The position numbers and the translations under genes are program-made. From Candidatus Gastranaerophilales bacterium (GTDB lineage: Bacteria > Cyanobacteriota > Vampirovibrionia > Gastranaerophilales > Gastranaerophilaceae): a stretch of DNA of 50,647 nucleotides. The stretch covers positions 1 through 50,647 of the forward strand of contig CALVCA010000010.1 of NCBI GenBank assembly GCA_944325895.1, read 5' to 3'. The notes beneath the pieces are model-generated. The model was not told where the DNA came from, made no database searches, and worked only from the letters and a program-made list of their open reading frames with translations. Positions 6,799-50,593 of this stretch are shown piece by piece. Positions within the stretch are counted from its first letter, which is position 1. The number at the start of each line of letters is the position of its first letter.

Positions 6799-6858
6799 AT
6801 GAAAACTATTGAAATAAAAGCGGATAAGATAGTCGCCCCCCCCCTATGGCACGCTTGA
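6799..6858 (+). CDS. Leader ORF ending in a C9 tract before a prepilin gene
   Basis: The frame encodes MKTIEIKADKIVAPPLWHA and stops. It has a strong ribosome site (AAGGAG, 7-base spacing) and a good promoter. The codons for APP lie in nine consecutive C at 6836-6844. With ten C the frame would not stop but read on through the ATG at 6846 into the prepilin ORF. A nearly identical leader stands before the prepilin at 45 kb. Reasonable readings are a phase-variable N-terminus, a -1 ribosomal or transcriptional slippage site, or a homopolymer sequencing error. Confidence 0.6.
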   Translation: MKTIEIKADKIVAPPLWHA

Positions 6859-7757
6859 CTAGTGCCTTTTTGGCTGTTTTTGGAAGTTTATTCCACACAA
6901 CACGTAACTTTGGACGTAAAAATTATTTTAATAAAGTTACCAGGGCATTATGCCAAAATAAGTTTTTAATGAACTTATTCCACACAACACGTCATCCTGA
7001 GCGGAGCGGTGCTACGCACGTAGACACATTAGGTTTGCCTTCTATACGTCATCCTGAGGCTTTAGCCGAAGGTGCTACGCACGTAAGTATGTTTGACAAA
7101 AATCGTTGTGCCGCTTTCACGTTAGCTGAGGTTCTTATCACCCTCGGGATTATAGGAATTGTTGCCGCTTTGACTATTCCGACGTTAGTTAAAAATTATG
7201 AAAAATTTGTTTTAGAAACTAAATTCAAAAAAGCTAAATCCGTATTATTCCAAACAATAAAATTATGGCAAATTGACGAAAATAATATTTTGACAAATCC
7301 TTATCATTTTAATGATGATATTGTTCTTAGGGATTATTTACTCAAATATCTCAAAGGAAACATCGTACAGACTCCCGCTGAATTAAAACCATATTTCACT
7401 TCTATAAAAAATTCTACTACAGAAATACATTATTGCCCTGTAAGCTGCTGCTTACATCCGTTGTATAACAACAGAATGATTGAAACTTCTGATGGAATTA
7501 TGTATGGAGCTTGTGCTAGAGATAATGTAATACATTTTTATTTTGATTTAAACGGCTATTACAAAGGTCCAAATAAATGGGGTATAGATTTATTTGACTT
7601 TGATTATGATAATGAAAATAAATTGTATATGTTTCAATGTGCGAGCTTTTATTGTACTAATTATTTTGATAGGACACCAACCAACGTTAATGACGGGTTG
7701 GGATGTACAGCCTGTGCATCAAAACATCGTGACTATTTTAAAAAGATAGATTGGTAA
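6846..7757 (+). CDS. Prepilin-like protein with repeat-derived long N-terminus
   Basis: The open frame of 303 aa holds a prepilin signature (CAAFTLAEVLITLGIIGIV) only at about residue 88, against 5-25 for normal prepilins. The 87 residues before it come from the leader cassette (FGRKNYFNKVTRALCQNKF, shared with the 45-kb locus) and from two interspersed repeat units translated as RHPERSGATHV and RHPEALAEGATHV. The ATG at 6846 directly follows the poly-C tract and has no ribosome site. The ATG at 7087 (MFDKN) would give a normal 222-aa prepilin but also lacks a clear site. The C-terminal region has DLNGYYKGPNKWGID, the family motif, and several Cys. The real start is unresolved, and expression may need the upstream leader to be in frame. 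Confidence 0.75.
   Translation: MARLTSAFLAVFGSLFHTTRNFGRKNYFNKVTRALCQNKFLMNLFHTTRHPERSGATHVDTLGLPSIRHPEALAEGATHVSMFDKNRCAAFTLAEVLITLGIIGIVAALTIPTLVKNYEKFVLETKFKKAKSVLFQTIKLWQIDENNILTNPYHFNDDIVLRDYLLKYLKGNIVQTPAELKPYFTSIKNSTTEIHYCPVSCCLHPLYNNRMIETSDGIMYGACARDNVIHFYFDLNGYYKGPNKWGIDLFDFDYDNENKLYMFQCASFYCTNYFDRTPTNVNDGLGCTACASKHRDYFKKIDW
6888..6992 (+). repeat. 18-bp direct repeats flanking three hairpins
   Basis: TTATTCCACACAACACGT occurs at 6888-6905 and 6975-6992. Between them are three inverted repeats: TAACTTT/AAAGTTA (6905-6911 with 6933-6939), GGCATTATGCC (6944-6954), and TAAGTT/AACTTA (6959-6964 with 6972-6977). The copy of this cassette at 45 kb keeps the second and partly the third, and lacks the direct repeat. 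Confidence 0.7.
6990..7085 (+). repeat. Two REP-like interspersed repeat units
   Basis: Unit 1 (6990-7022) and unit 2 (7047-7085) share CGTCATCCTGAG at the left and GGTGCTACGCACGTA at the right. Unit 2 has an internal palindrome GGCTTTAGCC, and GTGCTACGCAC forms a small hairpin. The right part recurs at 1-21 and 61-81, and as a decayed copy (CCGAAGGTGCTGCTTAAGTATG on the minus strand) near 40928-40949. All copies lie immediately before prepilin signatures. Confidence 0.75.
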
Positions 7758-27330: not shown

Positions 27331-27426
27331 CTAAGCCTGAAGGAAGTATACCCCCCCCCTACAGCTGCTTGCTGCAAGGGTTTCGGTCACTTCTGCTAAA
27401 AATTTTTCCGCTTTGTTTTTCTTCAT
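27331..27426 (-). CDS. Leader ORF with a G9 tract upstream of a prepilin
   Basis: The frame encodes 31 aa beginning MKKNKAEKFLAEVTETLAAS and ends after a run of nine G (27351-27359) in codons for RGGV. Its ATG is exactly 6 bases after a consensus promoter. With eight G the frame would instead continue as an 80-codon ORF that ends just inside the cloverleaf element. It resembles the two poly-C leaders in position and tract length but not in sequence, except for the shared bases C9TACAG on the plus strand. Confidence 0.5.
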   Translation of the reverse strand: MKKNKAEKFLAEVTETLAASSCRGGVYFLQA

Positions 27427-40119: not shown

Positions 40120-41031
40120 TTATTTTAAATACTTATAGCCGCAGCCGGCACCCGAGGCTTCAATAAGATATGTTGCATCTGCCGAGCCTATATCTTTTGA
40201 ACACCCTCTTACACCATAACCTTCCGACGGCTCAGGATATGTACATATAGCATCCTCGTCAACGCAGCGTGAACCTTTTGCCCCGTATGGTCTAAAACTT
40301 AAACTTTCTATAAATTGCTCTTTATAATATTGAAGACCTTCACTGCAAATACTAATAGCATAAACATCTTTACCTAAAACATTCGGTCCGCCGTTATAAT
40401 TATTAACATCCACGACTATTGTATGTCCGCTGTGTAATCCGCCAAAATAAATTGCAGCACCGTTTTTTAATAAAGCAGCTTTATTCCCAAAATCATATCC
40501 GCTATGTACCTCTCCTCCGGCTAAAGTCTTATATTTCCGGCCTAACACCGACCATCTGTATTTGATACGTTTTTTCCAATAATCATTATTTTCATAATGT
40601 TCATAATTATCACACATGTTTTCCGCATATCCTTCTCTGCCTCCGCAGGTATCAACAACTTGTAAATGCGACAGCATTGCATCTACAAATTCTCTTTTTA
40701 AGTAGTAATTTTCTACATCTTTAACGTTCATTCCGGGGTTTTCGGCAACTGTCATTTTAAAAGCGTTATTCAAAATAGCATAACATTCTTTCCACTTGGC
40801 ATGGAAATACATTTCCTGCATATTACTGATTAATGTCGGAATTGTCAAAGCTGCAACAATACCTATAATCCCGAGGGTGATTAGAACCTCTGATAATGTA
40901 AAAGCGGCATAACAATTAGTGCCAAACATACTTAAGCAGCACCTTCGGTTGAAAACAAATTTGTACATTAAAATTTTTATATACGCCATACGTGTGAATT
41001 GTTCTTTATTAATATGATTTATATTTATCAT
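40120..41031 (-). CDS. Prepilin-like protein, 41-kb locus
   Basis: The signature YAAFTLSEVLITLGIIGIV places this in the same family, with Ser for Ala before the conserved Glu. The frame from 41031 gives 303 aa with a 42-residue leader; the ATG at 40929 (MFGTNCY) gives a normal 269-aa prepilin. I keep the 41031 start because a consensus promoter ends 6 bases before it and no ribosome site precedes 40929. The C-terminal part has DVNNYNGGPNVLGKD, the shared motif, and many Cys. A decayed copy of the GGTGCTACGCACGTA repeat lies just upstream of 40929. It is divergent from an XRE gene 53 bases away. Confidence 0.78.
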   Translation of the reverse strand: MININHINKEQFTRMAYIKILMYKFVFNRRCCLSMFGTNCYAAFTLSEVLITLGIIGIVAALTIPTLISNMQEMYFHAKWKECYAILNNAFKMTVAENPGMNVKDVENYYLKREFVDAMLSHLQVVDTCGGREGYAENMCDNYEHYENNDYWKKRIKYRWSVLGRKYKTLAGGEVHSGYDFGNKAALLKNGAAIYFGGLHSGHTIVVDVNNYNGGPNVLGKDVYAISICSEGLQYYKEQFIESLSFRPYGAKGSRCVDEDAICTYPEPSEGYGVRGCSKDIGSADATYLIEASGAGCGYKYLK

Positions 41032-41414: not shown

Positions 41415-41441
41415 TTTTTGGGGTTTACAAAAACCCAAAAA
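41415..41441 (+). promoter_or_regulatory. Stem-loop in the SLH gene 5' leader
   Basis: TTTTTGGGGTTT pairs with AAAACCCAAAAA around ACA, with one bulged G, and ends 5 bases before the AAGGAGG ribosome site. It may stabilise the mRNA or affect translation. Confidence 0.5.
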
Positions 41442-41456
41442 CACAAGGAGGTAAAA

Positions 41457-43502
41457 ATGACTATTAAAAAACTTACTGTGGCAGCTGCAATTGCCGTTGG
41501 AATAGCAACGTGTTCCTTGAATCAAGCAATGGCGGCTTGTCCGTGCGAAAAGCCGACAGTAACAGGTCCTGCATGTCCTATTGAAGAGCAGATGCCTGTT
41601 GTAACAGGCGGAGCATGTCCGTGTGAAAAACCTGCTCCAAAATGTAACACATGTAAAAAAGCGTTGCCAGATTGCGAATGCAAAAAACCTGCACCTTGCG
41701 ATCCATGCCAAAAAGAAGAAAAAAAATCAGACTGCGGTTGTCCTGATGAAATAAGCTGTGATGAACCCGCAGTACCGGCATGTGCATTGTGTCCTCAAAC
41801 AGGAAAGCCTGATAGATCTCAAATGAAACAGGTTTACGGTTATCCGCAAGCAATTTACGGGACTAACAATTATGTTGGTGAACCGGCAAATTCAATCTTT
41901 ACGACAGACACAGCGATGAAAGGAAATTCATCAAACATGCTATCATCAAACATTAACGGTGTTACGGTAGCAACAGACGGTCAAATTACGGGTGCTGCTG
42001 CACAAATGCCATGTTTAAACGAATTACCGTCAATAAATAACGGTGTTTCAGTAAACAGAAACGAAGCGACTATGGATGGTAACAATTGTCCGATAGATTT
42101 CCAATCATCAAATTCGCTTGAAGCAATAAAAAAGTCTTTCGTCCCTTTTGATTTGAAACCGTTTGCAAATCAAACAACAGGGGCAGCAGCCGGTGTAGCA
42201 GGCGGATGTGTGTTCCCGGATGTTCCAAACAGCCACTGGGCATCATGCGACATCGACAAATTAGCAATGAATGATGTTGTTGTAGGTTATCCTGACGGGA
42301 TGTTTAAACCTAACAAAAATATTTCACGTGCTGAATTTGCCACTATGTTAGTAAAAGGTTTCAATCTTGATGCATGCGGTATGGAACGTGAAGGAATGTT
42401 TAGTGATGTTCCACGAGGAAACTGGGCTAACGCAGCCATTGCGAAAGCTGTCGATGAAAACTTGTTAAAAGGTTATCCTAACGGTCAATTCAAACCTAAT
42501 AACAACGTTAAAAGGGTTGAAGCACTGACATCAATTGCCAAAGGCATGACTTGCGACATAGACCAATGCAAAGCTGACGAAATCTTGAGCAAATATTCTG
42601 ACGGGGCATCCGTACCCGGATGGGCAAGAATTCCGGTTGCTAAATCATTGGAAAACGGTGCGTTGAAAGATTCACCTAATCCTAATATGATTATGCCGAA
42701 CAAAGACGCTTCCCGTGCTGACGTTGCTTCTATGATGCAAACTGTTCGTGTAGCTTTGGGATACGATACAAATCCAAAAACAGCTAACAACATTTGTCCT
42801 GCATGTCCTGTAGACAAAAATGCATTTGTTCAGGAAGAAGAAATCGTTAAAATCCCAACCTTACAAATTGAAATGATTGACCAATTAACAGCAAAATCAT
42901 CTCACGTAGGTCAATACTTTAGAGCTAATACCCTTGAAGATGTAACTATCAACGGTGTAACTTATCCTTGCGGTTCTACAGTTACAGGTCAGGTAGTTGA
43001 AGTTATCAGACCTTCAGGATGTGACAAAGGTGCTTTAAAATTAGCATTCACCGATATCAAAAACGGCGATTGCAAAACTAAGTTACCGAAACAAATCTTA
43101 AGTGCACAAATTAATAAATCTAAAAATGTAAACCCTGTTGCAAGACTTGTTGAAATGCCGTTTACATGGGCAGGTTCATTAGTCGGTGTTGCCGGCAGAA
43201 CTGTCGGAGGTGTTGTTTCTAACTTAGGTAACGCAGTAGAAAATGTATCTAATGACGCAGGTTATATGTTAGGTCACGTATTCCAGGGTAAATTCGGTGC
43301 TGCTGCACGTAACCTTGGTGACGGATTATGGGAAACTGTTAAAGCCCCTGTTGACGTAACTAGAACAGCTTTATCAGGTACAATGGGCTTATTCCAAACT
43401 ACAGGCGACGAATTTGCTTACCTTGTTGACCCTCGCGGATATAAAATATCTGCCGTAAATCCAAGAGAACACGTTACTATTGCTTTCGGTTGTAATGAAT
43501 AA
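41457..43502 (+). CDS. SLH-domain envelope protein with Cys-rich N-terminal region
   Basis: I start at the ATG at 41457, 5 bases after AAGGAGGT, giving 681 aa with a signal peptide ending near LNQAMA (residue 26). Residues about 27-115 hold many CPC/CxxC clusters (CPCEKP, CNTCKKALPDCECKKP, CDPCQK). Three SLH domains follow at about 249, 311 and 374 (VFPDVPNSHWA, MFSDVPRGNWA, and a weaker VPGWARIPVAKSLE), each with a GYPDG/GYPNG-type FKPN turn except the third. The C-terminal 200 residues form an unknown beta/helical domain. It lacks the OprB porin domain of cyanobacterial SLH proteins. It probably links the outer membrane to the cell wall. A strong terminator follows. Confidence 0.85.
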   Translation: MTIKKLTVAAAIAVGIATCSLNQAMAACPCEKPTVTGPACPIEEQMPVVTGGACPCEKPAPKCNTCKKALPDCECKKPAPCDPCQKEEKKSDCGCPDEISCDEPAVPACALCPQTGKPDRSQMKQVYGYPQAIYGTNNYVGEPANSIFTTDTAMKGNSSNMLSSNINGVTVATDGQITGAAAQMPCLNELPSINNGVSVNRNEATMDGNNCPIDFQSSNSLEAIKKSFVPFDLKPFANQTTGAAAGVAGGCVFPDVPNSHWASCDIDKLAMNDVVVGYPDGMFKPNKNISRAEFATMLVKGFNLDACGMEREGMFSDVPRGNWANAAIAKAVDENLLKGYPNGQFKPNNNVKRVEALTSIAKGMTCDIDQCKADEILSKYSDGASVPGWARIPVAKSLENGALKDSPNPNMIMPNKDASRADVASMMQTVRVALGYDTNPKTANNICPACPVDKNAFVQEEEIVKIPTLQIEMIDQLTAKSSHVGQYFRANTLEDVTINGVTYPCGSTVTGQVVEVIRPSGCDKGALKLAFTDIKNGDCKTKLPKQILSAQINKSKNVNPVARLVEMPFTWAGSLVGVAGRTVGGVVSNLGNAVENVSNDAGYMLGHVFQGKFGAAARNLGDGLWETVKAPVDVTRTALSGTMGLFQTTGDEFAYLVDPRGYKISAVNPREHVTIAFGCNE

Positions 43503-44906: not shown

Positions 44907-44935
44907 TTGACAAAATATTGAGAATAATATTTAAT
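44907..44935 (+). promoter_or_regulatory. Promoter of the poly-C prepilin leader (second copy)
   Basis: TTGACA (44907-44912), a 17-bp spacer and TTTAAT (44930-44935) match the 6749 promoter. The following 20 bases, including AAAAAGGAG, are nearly identical in both copies. Confidence 0.65.
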
Positions 44936-44956
44936 TAAGGAAAAAGGAGTTAAAAG

Positions 44957-45016
44957 ATGAAAACTATTGAAAAATTAGCGGATAAGATAGTCGCCCCCCC
45001 CCTACAGTGTGTTTGA
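44957..45016 (+). CDS. Leader ORF ending in a C9 tract, second copy
   Basis: The frame encodes MKTIEKLADKIVAPPLQCV and stops. It has a strong ribosome site and the C9 tract at 44994-45002. As at 6.8 kb, ten C would carry it into the downstream prepilin frame, giving ...APPPTVCLIKAF. Here no in-frame ATG exists between tract and prepilin signature, so the leader ATG is the only well-supported start for the prepilin. Confidence 0.65.
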   Translation: MKTIEKLADKIVAPPLQCV

Positions 45017-45813
45017 TTAAAGCCTTTCGGGCTGTTTTTGGAGTTCTATTCCACTCTATTCTGCATTTTGGGCGAAAAAATTATTTTAATAAAGTTACTA
45101 GAGCATTATGCCAAAATAACTTTTTAACGAACTTATTCCCTTCTAGAAAGAAAGCCGCATTCACTTTGGCAGAGATATTAATAACTCTTGGGATAATAGG
45201 AATAATTGCGGCTTTAACAATACCGAATTTGATATATGAATATCGTAAAAAGAGTTTGGAAACAGGTTTGGTAAAATTTTACAGCACAATTAATCAGGCA
45301 TTTAAATTATCAGCCGCTGAAAATGGGGATGAAAGACAATGGACAGATTTTGGTCAAGATTCTTGCAATTTTTATAAAAAATATCTTGCCCCGTATTTAA
45401 AGGCTGAATATGAATGCGGGTATTATGAGAGTGTAGAAGGGCAAAAACCCAATAAAAAGAATGACGTCAGGTTTGTGGGGATATATTTTCCTTCCGGTGA
45501 TATGGCAGTGCTTTCTTACGGATGGACTTTTACATATACAAATCAAAAAAAATATTACAAAGCATATCCTGCATTTATATCCGGTAATGAATCCGATAAA
45601 CCGGAGCTTTATGGAAAGGAAGTTTTCTTATTTGAAAGATCCAAACATAGATTTCCTAATGGTGAAACAGGCGGCATGACAGCATATGATAGTTTAAAAT
45701 CATATACCGAAAATGAATTATTAGAAAGATGTAAAAGTCAAGGCAAAAGTTGTACGACACTTATATCAAATAACGGGTGGAAAATTCCTGATAATTATCC
45801 GTTTAAAATTTAA
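45007..45813 (+). CDS. Prepilin-like protein probably started in the poly-C leader
   Basis: The open frame (268 aa from a GTG) has the signature KKAAFTLAEILITLGIIGII at about residue 50. The region before it (FGRKNYFNKVTRALCQNNFL) is shared with the 6.8-kb locus. The GTG at 45007 lies inside the leader ORF without a ribosome site, and no ATG follows before the signature, so expression as drawn needs a start at 44957 plus one extra base, or a -1 slip, in the C9 tract. The mature part is Tyr- and Lys-rich. The shared DxNG-GPN motif is replaced by SGNESDKPELYGKEVF. A tRNA-Ser gene follows 170 bases later. Confidence 0.72.
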   Translation: MCLIKAFRAVFGVLFHSILHFGRKNYFNKVTRALCQNNFLTNLFPSRKKAAFTLAEILITLGIIGIIAALTIPNLIYEYRKKSLETGLVKFYSTINQAFKLSAAENGDERQWTDFGQDSCNFYKKYLAPYLKAEYECGYYESVEGQKPNKKNDVRFVGIYFPSGDMAVLSYGWTFTYTNQKKYYKAYPAFISGNESDKPELYGKEVFLFERSKHRFPNGETGGMTAYDSLKSYTENELLERCKSQGKSCTTLISNNGWKIPDNYPFKI

Positions 45814-45981: not shown

Positions 45982-46071
45982 GGAGGAGTGCCAGAGCGGT
46001 TGATTGGAGCAGTCTTGAAAACTGTCGAACGTTCACGCGTTCCGTGGGTTCGAATCCCACCTCCTCCTCCA
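45982..46071 (+). tRNA. tRNA-Ser (anticodon UGA)
   Basis: A 90-nt cloverleaf can be drawn. The acceptor GGAGGAG pairs with CTCCTCC; the D-arm is CCA/TGG; the anticodon arm GCAGT-CTTGAAA-ACTGT carries TGA; a long variable arm has GAACG/CGTTC; and the T-arm is GTGGG-TTCGAAT-CCCAC. CCA is encoded. In this register the discriminator base is U, where tRNA-Ser normally has G. The CTCCTCCTCC run at the 3' end would allow other registers. Confidence 0.95.
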
Positions 46072-46075
46072 TTTT

Positions 46076-46629: not shown

Positions 46630-46651
46630 ATTAGTTTTAGTATGTTTAATG

Positions 46652-46657
46652 TATAAT
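46652..46657 (+). promoter_or_regulatory. -10 element of the DUF262 operon
   Basis: TATAAT lies inside the first codons of the longest frame (ATG at 46649), which argues for the ATG at 46682 as the start, with AAAGGA 11 bases before it. The -35 position (ACATTA) is poor, so an activator may be needed. Confidence 0.55.
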
Positions 46658-46681
46658 GAAGTTCAAAGGAAAATAAAGCTG

Positions 46682-48406
46682 ATGAATAATGAAATAATAC
46701 TTGATACAAAGCTTATTGGTGATATAAAAGGAAACTTCTTTGTTCCTTCTTATCAAAGAGGTTATCGTTGGGGAAAGTCAGAAGTTACACGTCTTTTAGA
46801 AGATTTATGTTCTACCGATGGGAAAAGAAATTACTGTCTTCAACCTATTGTTGTAAGAGCAAATGGTGATAAATATGAACTGATAGATGGCCAACAAAGA
46901 TTAACTACAATATATTTAATTTATAGGTACATGAACGAAGTAAGTTTTGGATTTATTGATGAACCACGTTTTACACTTTCTTATAAAACTAGAGAAAAAT
47001 CAGAAAAATTTCTAAAAACAATAGATGAATCGTGCAAGGATGACAATATTGACTTTTGGCATATTTGTTCTGCCTATCAAAGTATTAAAGAATGGTTTGA
47101 CAAAAAGGATAAAAAATCAACTATAACAAATATAAATAAATATTTTGATGAAATCGTCAAAGTTATATGGTATGAAGTCAGTGAGTCAGAAGATGCTATA
47201 AATTTATTCACAAGGCTTAATATTGGTAAAATCCCGCTTACTAGTGCTGAGCTCGTAAAAGCAATGTTTTTAAGTAGGAGTAAAGAAACAAATCTTGGAA
47301 AGAAAAAACAAGAAGAAATTTCTTTGCAATGGGATTATATCGAAAAAGAACTTCACAATGATCATTTATGGTATTTTTTAACAAACAAAACAAAAATAAA
47401 ATATCAGACAAGAATAGATCTAATTCTTGATCTCATCTCTGCAAAACCTATTGATAATCGTGAAAAATACTACACTTTTTTTAAATTTGATGAAATGAGC
47501 AAAATCGACTCATTGGATAGTATATGGGAGAATATTCAACAAACATTTCTTATATTAAAAGATTGGTACGAAAACCATGAATTATACCATAAGATAGGCT
47601 ATTTAATTGCATCAGAGACACTAACATTGGGAGAAATTTTTGATATTTCAAAAAATAAAACAAAAAATAAATTTAGGGAAGTTATTGATGAAAAAATAAA
47701 AAATAGTATAAAAATCAATGAAAATTATTCCGAATTAAGTTACGAAAAAGAAACAGATAGAAATAGAATATCTACCTTATTGTTACTTTTTAATATTGAA
47801 TCCGTTCGTCAAAATGGTGAAGAAACTCAATGGTTTCCTTTTGATAAATACAAATATAGTAAGGCTGAAAAAGTTTTATGGAGTCTTGAACATATTCATG
47901 CACAACATTCTGAGGGGATGAAAACTCAAGAAACTTGGAAAACATGGCTTACACTTCATCTTTCTTCTATCCAAGTCGTTAAAAAAGAGTCAAACGAACT
48001 TATAGATAAGATAAAATCTGCAATAAAAAAAGAAAAATTAGAAAGAACAGAATTTGAAGCAATTCAAAAAGATATCATTAATATACTTTCAGTAGAAGGA
48101 AATATTGAATATCTACATTCAATATCTAACTTAGCAATACTTAATTGTGGTGATAATGCAGCATTGAACAATTCAACTTTTGATGTTAAAAGAAATGCAA
48201 TTATAGAGATGGATAAAGGAGGAAAATATATACCATTTTGTACTAAAATGGTCTTTTTAAAATATTACACACCTTCGTCAGATAATCAATTACATTTTTG
48301 GGGACATTCTGACAGAGTGGCATACATCAAAGCAATAAATGAGATTTTATACTATAAATCTCATTATCTTGATGAACCTATATACCTTGAAGGGGAGGAA
48401 AATTAA
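46682..48406 (+). CDS. DUF262-DUF1524 protein (GmrSD-like nuclease)
   Basis: This 574-aa protein has the ParB-like DUF262 motifs QRGYRW (25-30) and DGQQRLTT (69-76), and a C-terminal DUF1524-type HNH region: LEHIHAQ near residue 402, then SNLAILNCGDNAALNNSTF and a Lys about 80-100 residues later. GmrSD-type enzymes hydrolyse NTP through the DUF262 part and cut modified phage DNA through the HNH part. Whether this one needs modified DNA is unknown. Start choice is given under the promoter. The second DUF262 gene begins at its stop codon. Confidence 0.85.
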   Translation: MNNEIILDTKLIGDIKGNFFVPSYQRGYRWGKSEVTRLLEDLCSTDGKRNYCLQPIVVRANGDKYELIDGQQRLTTIYLIYRYMNEVSFGFIDEPRFTLSYKTREKSEKFLKTIDESCKDDNIDFWHICSAYQSIKEWFDKKDKKSTITNINKYFDEIVKVIWYEVSESEDAINLFTRLNIGKIPLTSAELVKAMFLSRSKETNLGKKKQEEISLQWDYIEKELHNDHLWYFLTNKTKIKYQTRIDLILDLISAKPIDNREKYYTFFKFDEMSKIDSLDSIWENIQQTFLILKDWYENHELYHKIGYLIASETLTLGEIFDISKNKTKNKFREVIDEKIKNSIKINENYSELSYEKETDRNRISTLLLLFNIESVRQNGEETQWFPFDKYKYSKAEKVLWSLEHIHAQHSEGMKTQETWKTWLTLHLSSIQVVKKESNELIDKIKSAIKKEKLERTEFEAIQKDIINILSVEGNIEYLHSISNLAILNCGDNAALNNSTFDVKRNAIIEMDKGGKYIPFCTKMVFLKYYTPSSDNQLHFWGHSDRVAYIKAINEILYYKSHYLDEPIYLEGEEN

Positions 48407-50593
48407 GTGGAAGCTAAACTTTATTCTTTTATTGACATTTTCAATAGTGAATTTAATACCGATCAAGAAATTGTAAGACTTGAGCAAATTACAATACCAA
48501 TCATACAAAGAGATTACGCCCAAGGAAGAAATGACCCAAGCATAGAACGTATAAGAGATCGTTTTCTTAATTCTTTGTATGCTGCTGTTACCAAAAAGCC
48601 TATAATTCTTGATTTTATATATGGTGATATTGATAAGTTTGGTAATATGACACCGTTAGATGGTCAACAACGACTTACAACCTTATTTTTACTTTATTGG
48701 TATGCTGCAAAAAAAGAAAATATTTCAGAAAACGAATATAGTTTTCTGAATAAATTCAGTTATGATACAAGATATAGTGCTCGAACTTTTTGTAAATATC
48801 TTGTAAAATTTTGTCCATCTTTTGAGGACGCTCTTTCTAATGAAATTATCGATCAGGAATGGTTCCCACTGGATTGGAAAAAAGACTCTACAATTAGTTC
48901 AATGCTTGTAATGCTTGATGCTATAGATGAAAAATTTAAAGATGTAGAAAAACTGTGGCAAAAATTAAAAAATAAATCTATTATGTTTTATTTTTTGCCA
49001 ATCAAAGATATGGGACTTACAGATGAACTTTATATAAAAATGAATTCTCGTGGCAAACCTCTAACTATCTTTGAGCATTTTAAAGCCGAATTAGAACGTA
49101 ATATTAGTATAATAGATGAGAACCTTGCAGACAATATAATTTATAAAATTGACCAAGATTGGACTAATTTATTGTGGCGATATAGAAATAGTCATATTGG
49201 CTCTGAAGACGATAATATCATTGATGATGAATTTCTTCGTTATTTTAAATTTATATGTGATATAATCTGTTATAAAAATAAGGAAAATCCAAAAGAAAAT
49301 AAAGATGAATTTGATTTACTACAGAAATATTTTTCTCCCGACAATCCAGATGTATTAAAAAATCTTTCTACAATGGAAGCATTTTTTGATTGTTGGTGTA
49401 ATCTTTCAGGATATAATACTCCTTTTGATTTTTTTAAATCGTTTATGTCATATAAACATGAATTTAATAAAATTATAGTAGAATCTCGTTTTAACATTGA
49501 TATCCTTGGAGATTGTCTTCATACATATTCTGATAGAAATGGTCGTATAAGATTATTTCCATTGAATAGAATGGTGTTATTATATGCAATCATATTTTAT
49601 CTTAACAATCATGATAGAATAACAGAAAATGATTTCAAACGAAGGATTAGAATAATTAATAACTTAATTCAGAATTCGGAAGATGAAATAAGTGATAGAG
49701 CGGATAAAAATCGTATTCCCGCTATTTTGGATGAAGTAGATTACATTCTCATGACAGGAGAGATCAACGATAATATCAGTAGCAACTTTAATATTAATCA
49801 ATTAGAAGAAGAAAAAGAAAAAATTGCTTTTCTAAAGGAAAAACCACATTTAATAGAGACATTATTTAGACTTGAAGATCACAGTATGTTATTTGGACAA
49901 ATTAGCATTTTAGGGTTAGATAATTTAACATATGCTGAGAGATTTGAATCATTATTCAAGTGTAATTGGGATAAAATAGATTGTGCTCTGATGGCAATAG
50001 GTGATTATGGGCAAATGGAACAAAATAGGTGGCGCTATCAATATGCTTCTAGCGCTATTAAACAAGCTTGGATAAAGCTTTTTCATAAAAGTTCCAATTT
50101 TGGCTTTGATAAAACTAGAAATATTCTTGTCAAATTGTTGTCTATGCACAAAGAATTTAATGATGAAATCTTAGATAAAATAGCTAAAAATTACACGGAT
50201 GAATGTTTACGTAACAAAATTTTTCCATTTAGATACTATTATATATGTTATCCCGAATATCGTCCTGGTTCTTATGGAAAATTAAGTAATGGTTCTGCTA
50301 AGGATGAACCTTATATGTATGCGGTACTACAAACAAAGGCACAATGGTCGAAAAATGCTTATATTCCTTTTTTAAAGGCTGCTGATGCTGAAAATCTTTC
50401 TGCCGATTATATGGGACAACGTCTTATATATGATAATGAGCAAATTATTTGTAAAAACGATTCATATATATGCCTAAAGAATAATAATATAGTTTACACA
50501 ATAAAAATCAATCAAAATGAAAATGGTTTTGATATTGAAGATCGCATCTTAAAATTGAAAGAATATATTAGGACTCTTCCTAAATGTAATTAA
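48407..50593 (+). CDS. Second DUF262-family protein
   Basis: This 728-aa protein starts at GTG (48407), directly after the first gene's TAA, with GGGGAGGA upstream. It has DUF262 motifs QRDYAQGR (34-41) and DGQQRLTT (85-92), and LYIKMNSRGKPLTIFEHFKAELER further on, typical of the family. I see no LEHIxPQ-type HNH signature, so it probably lacks its own DUF1524 nuclease. The C-terminal 250 residues (for example FPFRYYYICYPEYRPGSYG) form an unrecognised domain. The two genes are surely co-translated and probably act as one system. Confidence 0.82.
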   Translation: MEAKLYSFIDIFNSEFNTDQEIVRLEQITIPIIQRDYAQGRNDPSIERIRDRFLNSLYAAVTKKPIILDFIYGDIDKFGNMTPLDGQQRLTTLFLLYWYAAKKENISENEYSFLNKFSYDTRYSARTFCKYLVKFCPSFEDALSNEIIDQEWFPLDWKKDSTISSMLVMLDAIDEKFKDVEKLWQKLKNKSIMFYFLPIKDMGLTDELYIKMNSRGKPLTIFEHFKAELERNISIIDENLADNIIYKIDQDWTNLLWRYRNSHIGSEDDNIIDDEFLRYFKFICDIICYKNKENPKENKDEFDLLQKYFSPDNPDVLKNLSTMEAFFDCWCNLSGYNTPFDFFKSFMSYKHEFNKIIVESRFNIDILGDCLHTYSDRNGRIRLFPLNRMVLLYAIIFYLNNHDRITENDFKRRIRIINNLIQNSEDEISDRADKNRIPAILDEVDYILMTGEINDNISSNFNINQLEEEKEKIAFLKEKPHLIETLFRLEDHSMLFGQISILGLDNLTYAERFESLFKCNWDKIDCALMAIGDYGQMEQNRWRYQYASSAIKQAWIKLFHKSSNFGFDKTRNILVKLLSMHKEFNDEILDKIAKNYTDECLRNKIFPFRYYYICYPEYRPGSYGKLSNGSAKDEPYMYAVLQTKAQWSKNAYIPFLKAADAENLSADYMGQRLIYDNEQIICKNDSYICLKNNNIVYTIKINQNENGFDIEDRILKLKEYIRTLPKCN

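Follow-up and report, generated by a model that had tools for sequence, protein, structure and literature searches.

Poly-C and poly-G tracts in the leaders of many Gastranaerophilales prepilin genes point to probable phase variation with a mostly OFF state

A prepilin gene separated from its putative start codon by nine cytosines

The DNA analysed here (the window, 50,647 nt) is contig C10 of the 47 contigs that make up the 1.69 Mb genome of a gut-dwelling member of the Gastranaerophilales, non-photosynthetic relatives of cyanobacteria. Its forward strand carries, at 44907-45813, a prepilin coding region and, ahead of it, the start signals of another frame. The region opens with a promoter-like element (44907-44935) composed of TTGACA (44907-44912), a 17-nt spacer and TTTAAT (44930-44935) within a conserved AATAATATTTAATTAAG block, followed by the ribosome-binding site AAGGAG (44944-44949), which lies 7 nt 5' of an ATG at 44957 and is conserved in the cassette described below. 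Of the 26 class A leaders in the genome, most have TTGACA and the AATAATATTTAATTAAG block on their 5' side. A sequence-only reading of this DNA had proposed a strong promoter and ribosome site here; AAGGAG and TTGACA with its conserved block are indeed present, but a consensus scanner reported no sigma-70 site at 44907-44935, so that the proposal is weakened for the promoter.

From ATG 44957 a short ORF (44957-45016; 19 amino acids, MKTIEKLADKIVAPPLQCV) runs through nine consecutive C (44994-45002, as read from the sequence), the proposed switch, and ends at TGA 45014-45016, exactly as the earlier reading described; this peptide would be the product of the OFF state. The prepilin frame lies one base away from this ORF and is shut upstream by a TAA (44983-44985) located 8 nt 5' of the tract. 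Past the tract it contains neither a stop nor an ATG throughout its leader (45003-45159, 52 codons), and the open stretch ahead of the prepilin signature amounts to 58 codons. The earliest candidate starts for the prepilin are GTG 45007 and TTG 45013, both 3' of the C run and both without a ribosome site. Direct reading thus confirmed the offset and the lack of any ATG before the signature FTLAEILIT at 45160. One additional base in the tract would fuse the two frames and place a leader of 68 residues, close to the approximately 70 first estimated, ahead of the F of FTLAE, with a junction that would contain ...IVAPPPTVCLIK... in the fused product. A possible attenuator, in the form of a terminator-like stem at 45021-45033, was rejected because the stem is weak and its conservation not established.

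The mature-type prepilin (45160-45813, FTLAEILITLGIIGIIAALTIPNLI..., 217 amino acids, stop included) matched the Pfam families N_methyl (22.4 bits, cut-off 21.2) and DUF6613 (45.2 bits, cut-off 24.3), as well as TIGR02532 (18.7 bits, cut-off 16.3). Its class III signal, FTLAEILITLGIIGIIAALTIP at 45160, has the form F-T-L-x-E followed by a hydrophobic helix, with Glu at +5. AlphaFold2 modelled a long N-terminal helix (residues 3-55) plus strands with a pLDDT of 85.9. Foldseek retrieved no match to this model in the PDB at E 0.001, and PAK pilin superposed on it from residue 1 with Z 4.7 and an rmsd of 3.2 over 109 residues, a Z that unrelated chains also reach; on the basis of the model a pilin fold is plausible. 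The predicted 68-residue leader is unusually long compared with the short, positively charged leader of prepilins. The genome encodes one Peptidase_A24 gene (a PilD-type prepilin peptidase) and T2SSE ATPases.

One leader cassette precedes divergent pilins across the genome

Long C and G tracts are concentrated at prepilin loci in this genome. It has 63 loci with a prepilin signature and 36 C or G tracts of at least 9 bases, 34 of which lie at prepilin loci; these 36 tracts provide 49 C9 positions, when about 1 would be expected from composition. In the window, C7 positions number 9, compared with 0.75 in shuffled sequence. The tracts fall into class A (20), class B, with a G tract on the gene strand (10, and one at a contig edge that resembles this class), class C, with the tract in a short ORF 5' of a prepilin that has its own start (3), and two unrelated cases. 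About 30 pilin loci of this genome carry such a tract, and nearly all of them are OFF in the consensus.

The 20 class A tracts share the cassette TTGACA...AATAATATTTAATTAAG...AAGGAGTTAAGAG-ATG-AAAACTATTGAA...GCGGATAAGATAGTCG-C9, as found at the 44957 locus. Leaders are much more alike (median identity 85% in DNA) than the pilins that follow them (median 28% in amino acids). A second copy of the cassette lies in the window at 6799-7757 (+), with ATG 6799, C9 at 6836-6844 and a prepilin signature at 7116, again one base out of frame. At a third site, of class C, a G9 tract (27351-27359, -) sits in a short ORF 5' of a prepilin with its own ATG (MTKRFGFTLAE), a related layout without fusion. At this site and at the class C loci L020 and L021 the short ORF, MKKNRAEKFLAEVTKTLTASTCRGG..., is broken by G9 and its continuation is likewise out of frame.

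Nearly all readable pilins of class A are displaced in the same sense: 18 of 19 need exactly one additional base (17 with C9, plus L025, where a T-to-C change produced C10), and the remaining one, L019, is fused in frame by an extra T after its C9 and encodes 436 amino acids. The tract of L073 is C8. Class B is more mixed, with two loci in frame (L009 with G10 and L012 with G9), six G10 and one G11 that need the loss of a base, and one G11 that needs a gain.

Several further features accompany these loci. Some class A leaders (L018, L027, L029 and L032 among them) contain interspersed in-frame repeats, RHSERSEESLNEILRLKPQGATHVG..., between tract and signature, which sometimes duplicate FTLAE and always leave the prepilin frame free of stops. 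A prepilin at 40120-41031 (-) is kin to the tract-led pilins of L031 and L073 and itself has no tract, so this subfamily occurs with and without the switch. C tracts show a strand bias of 46 to 3 in this genome, which is absent from the sister genomes compared. Some contigs start or end at a tract or within a few bases of one (for example G000:C11:1-9 and the ends of G062:C7 and G014:C96), an outcome to be expected of repeated leaders or of tracts mixed in length.

Tract length and frame vary among relatives

The leader motif with its C tract (GCGGTTCAGATAGTCGC-C9 and variants) was found in eleven other genomes of the genus. In these, 34 C9 loci need one additional base, and loci in frame have C10 (L081, L095), C7 (L084, L094, L105) or C9 with a changed flank (L045, L087). 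Tracts of C9 or longer are present in 16/16 genomes of the genus and in 52/60 sampled genomes of the family. G014, of the same genus, has pilins with G9 or G10, all OFF. In G060, from another genus, pilins with closely similar leaders are OFF at G10 and mostly ON at G11, with 4/11 in frame. Other genera have G9-G15, with 15/17 loci out of frame and both OFF directions represented. The family total reaches 111 tract-led prepilin loci (94 OFF and 17 ON); these lengths come from consensus assemblies, one genome per species, where minority lengths are invisible.

The same pilin subfamily can be found in opposite states in different species (L047, C9 and OFF; L095, C10 and ON), and also behind tracts of different base (L017, G11 and OFF; L084, C7 and ON). 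No significant link was found between the ON state and a particular pilin subfamily. Some copies, in our genome and in relatives, have interrupted tracts and are still out of frame (L059, L069, L070, L071 and L072; for example CCCTCCCCC), and a long pilin ORF is present wherever the pilin is in reach. Such copies, as assembled, could not switch by slippage.

Tract runs of up to about 18 also occur in a sister genus: in G088, L212, L214 and L216 have C12-C14 at the start of proteins with an SFGS-like motif and no prepilin signature, another family of tract-led genes.

The interval behind the tract is kept open and OFF pilins are under purifying selection

Stop codons were then compared among the three frames of the interval between tract and signature. 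In the relatives, 1,729 codons of the prepilin frame are free of stops, whereas 138 and 203 stops occur in the other two frames. In our genome the prepilin frame has 4 stops in 3,502 codons, compared with 251 and 425 in the other two, and all 4 are at class C loci, where the pilin has its own start. Every fused-type locus has its pilin frame uninterrupted from the tract on. This avoidance of stops indicates that the sequence 3' of the tract is maintained in a form that can be translated from there on. Moreover, this interval contains neither ATG nor GTG nor TTG at 20 OFF loci, where standard start codons cannot yield a prepilin unless the frames are joined at the tract. Judging by the sequences, the fused frame is real, given the stop-free interval, these 20 start-less OFF loci and the naturally fused versions. 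Amino-acid conservation gave no support over the first 63 nt past the tract (12 nonsynonymous and 0 synonymous changes in the prepilin frame, for 9.5 and 2.3 expected); codon-level selection is not shown there, so the evidence for translation of this part is stop avoidance and not conservation.

Among related pilins of our genome, pairwise dN/dS beyond the first 30 residues was 0.19-0.42 for OFF pilins, and 0.27 for a pair that includes the interrupted-tract copy L072. Purifying selection on OFF pilins implies that some condition leads to their expression, or did so until recently.

Phase variation and the alternatives to it

We consider it likely that these pilins vary in phase through slipped-strand mispairing and that the commonest tract length is adjusted to give the OFF state. 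At our locus, the coding sequence would begin at ATG 44957, and C9 would throw the gene body one base out, so that in the assembled, OFF state the sole product would be the 19-residue peptide. Slipped-strand mispairing during replication would occasionally yield a compatible tract (C10 or C7) and join the frames, the ON product being a prepilin with a 68-residue cytoplasmic leader that the prepilin peptidase would remove at the FTLAE signature. Each cell would then display a small and changing subset of its pilins. That slippage takes place, that the ON product is made and cleaved, and what it does biologically are inferences from the arrangement described.

Several results agree with this proposal. 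The tract lies in the 5' coding region after a supported start, a layout common to all 111 loci; its length decides the frame, and homologues are in frame at C7/C10, G9, G10 and G11; and length ranges from 7 to 15 between loci and species, although it is nearly fixed at C9 for this cassette in the genus. The stop-free interval, the start-less OFF loci, the purifying selection on OFF pilins and the encoded prepilin peptidase and T2SSE ATPases speak for it as well. As far as sequence comparison can tell, switching by mutation accounts for tracts of either base, for displacement in both directions, for lengths that differ between loci and for homologues that are ON in one species and OFF in another. 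The ON fraction, 17/111 in the family and 10/74 in the genus set, is below the one third expected under neutral drift (p = 3e-5 for the family, an optimistic value because the loci are related), which suggests flanks arranged such that a tract of ordinary length leaves the gene OFF, whether through selection or because a consensus captures the majority state.

Several observations count against switching. The genome encodes MutS, the pure C tracts of the genus (51 C9 OFF, two C10 ON and one C8) are more uniform than free switching would give, the ON fraction falls short of the neutral third, and the copies with interrupted tracts could not slip, yet retain a long pilin ORF where it is in reach. 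The initial claim that the pilin is phase-variable is accordingly favoured by the comparative lengths and frames and by subfamily members in both states, and opposed by the near-invariance of C9 in the genus. A modal length of 9 is not odd in itself, since the poly-G/C tracts that switch genes in Campylobacter peak there (9 in 53% and 10 in 26%; PMC6321876).

This same uniformity is what favours programmed recoding, in which C9 would be fixed and either RNA polymerase slippage (+1 C) or -1 ribosomal frameshifting on C CCC CCC would provide a constant small amount of full-length prepilin. Across 12 genomes of the genus, C9 and its frame hardly vary at about 50 loci, out-of-frame pilins are still under purifying selection, and conserved frame transitions in homopolymers of at least 8 bases are a known pattern of recoding (PMC3711429). 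A fixed slippery site with an offset in one direction is indeed seen for the C9 of class A in the genus, but the G-tract classes differ: the shift is +1 for C9 and -1 for the G10 of our genome and the G9 of G014, so no single slip direction fits. Lengths that are in frame, C10 and G11, exist in homologues, and slippage in bacteria has been described mostly on runs of A or T (PMC3711429). Stable RNA structure 3' of the tract was absent at the four loci folded (z -0.94, -1.48, +0.29 and +0.07), and a stimulator of ribosomal -1 frameshifting 3' of our C9 was discarded because the sequence folded no better than shuffles. We therefore regard recoding as possible but unlikely, and as slightly more doubtful still the broader claim that, across the genus, about 50 pilin genes use slippage on a fixed C9, and not mutation, to meter low amounts of many pilins. 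The uniform C9 permits a clean test between mutation-based switching and recoding.

Translational coupling, with the short ORF as a leader peptide and ribosomes restarting at GTG 45007 or TTG 45013, finds some basis in the overlap of TTG 45013 with the stop TGA 45014 and in the frequency of TTGA among type 1 copies. It is nevertheless very improbable in view of the 20 OFF loci that lack a standard start codon in the interval, the in-frame fused versions and the prepilin frame open all the way back to the tract; in addition, only 19/94 OFF loci have a start codon within 15 nt of the short-ORF stop, and start-codon density is 3.6%.

We assign a similarly low likelihood to most tract-led pilins being silent copies, that is, unexpressed donors that recombine into one expressed locus and whose frame is incidental. 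Leader DNA far more alike than the pilins, some interrupted tracts and the single in-frame fusion at L019 would agree with this, but most copies have retained a promoter-like block, a ribosome site and an ATG of their own, and an interval open in the prepilin frame would be needless in a silent donor.

That the true tract is C10 and the gene intact is hardly credible, even though homopolymers are error-prone on some platforms, as C9 recurs in 12 genomes of the genus, at more than 50 loci, and in assemblies of different naming styles (k127/k141, NODE and idba, typical of MEGAHIT, SPAdes and IDBA), C7, C8, C10, G10 and G11 were recovered in the same or sister genomes, and a uniform undercount would put L019 out of frame too. 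The sequence-only reading had named such a fixed C10, or an intact ATG just before the signature in related genomes, as findings that would speak against switching; as to the latter, none of the out-of-frame class A loci has an ATG with a ribosome site between tract and signature.

Comparison with known systems

Phase variation by homopolymeric tracts, which we favour, is a mechanism already known from gonococcal pilE and from Campylobacter. In Neisseria gonorrhoeae, the major pilin gene pilE is switched when its poly-C run gains or loses a base and the frame shifts (PMC5610331); our case resembles it in the poly-C run, placed within a type IV pilin gene, whose length sets the frame. The gonococcal system, however, has one expressed gene that is usually ON and silent pilS donors (PMC5610331), whereas here there are dozens of complete pilin genes, the tract precedes the cleavage site within the leader, and most loci are OFF in the consensus. 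Neisserial pilC and similar genes undergo translational phase variation by poly-G (PMC5320596), but pilC is not a pilin subunit and has no leader cassette common to dozens of paralogues. The Campylobacter phasome also has tens of G/C tracts per genome with lengths mostly of 9-10, but coding-strand C is found in just 5% of its tracts, which are spread over many gene families (PMC6321876), whereas in our set coding-strand C is common and one family, the prepilins, dominates. The frame transitions attributed to transcriptional slippage resemble ours in the conserved homopolymer that separates two frames, but are mainly on A/T runs of fixed length with one slip direction (PMC3711429).

Literature searches on phase variation or homopolymeric tracts in Gastranaerophilales or Melainabacteria returned nothing relevant. 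Within the reach of the searches, four features appear to be new: the taxon, how many pilin genes share a single cassette, the placement of the tract within a long leader that precedes the cleavage site, and an OFF state by default. If the proposal is correct, common gut bacteria with small genomes would have dozens of genes given over to a repertoire of pilins under the control of tract length, on a scale like that of the contingency loci of Campylobacter and Neisseria but in one protein family and set OFF. Gene callers would then truncate, mis-start or split many pilins in Gastranaerophilales genomes.

Neighbouring genes

Upstream of the C9 locus, the window encodes an SLH-domain protein (41418-43502, +) with two SLH stretches (Pfam E 5e-29). 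Downstream, two adjacent large ORFs with DGQQRLTT motifs occupy 46649-50593 (+); they are putatively DUF262-like, and a tRNA-Ser-like sequence (~45982-46072) adjoins them.
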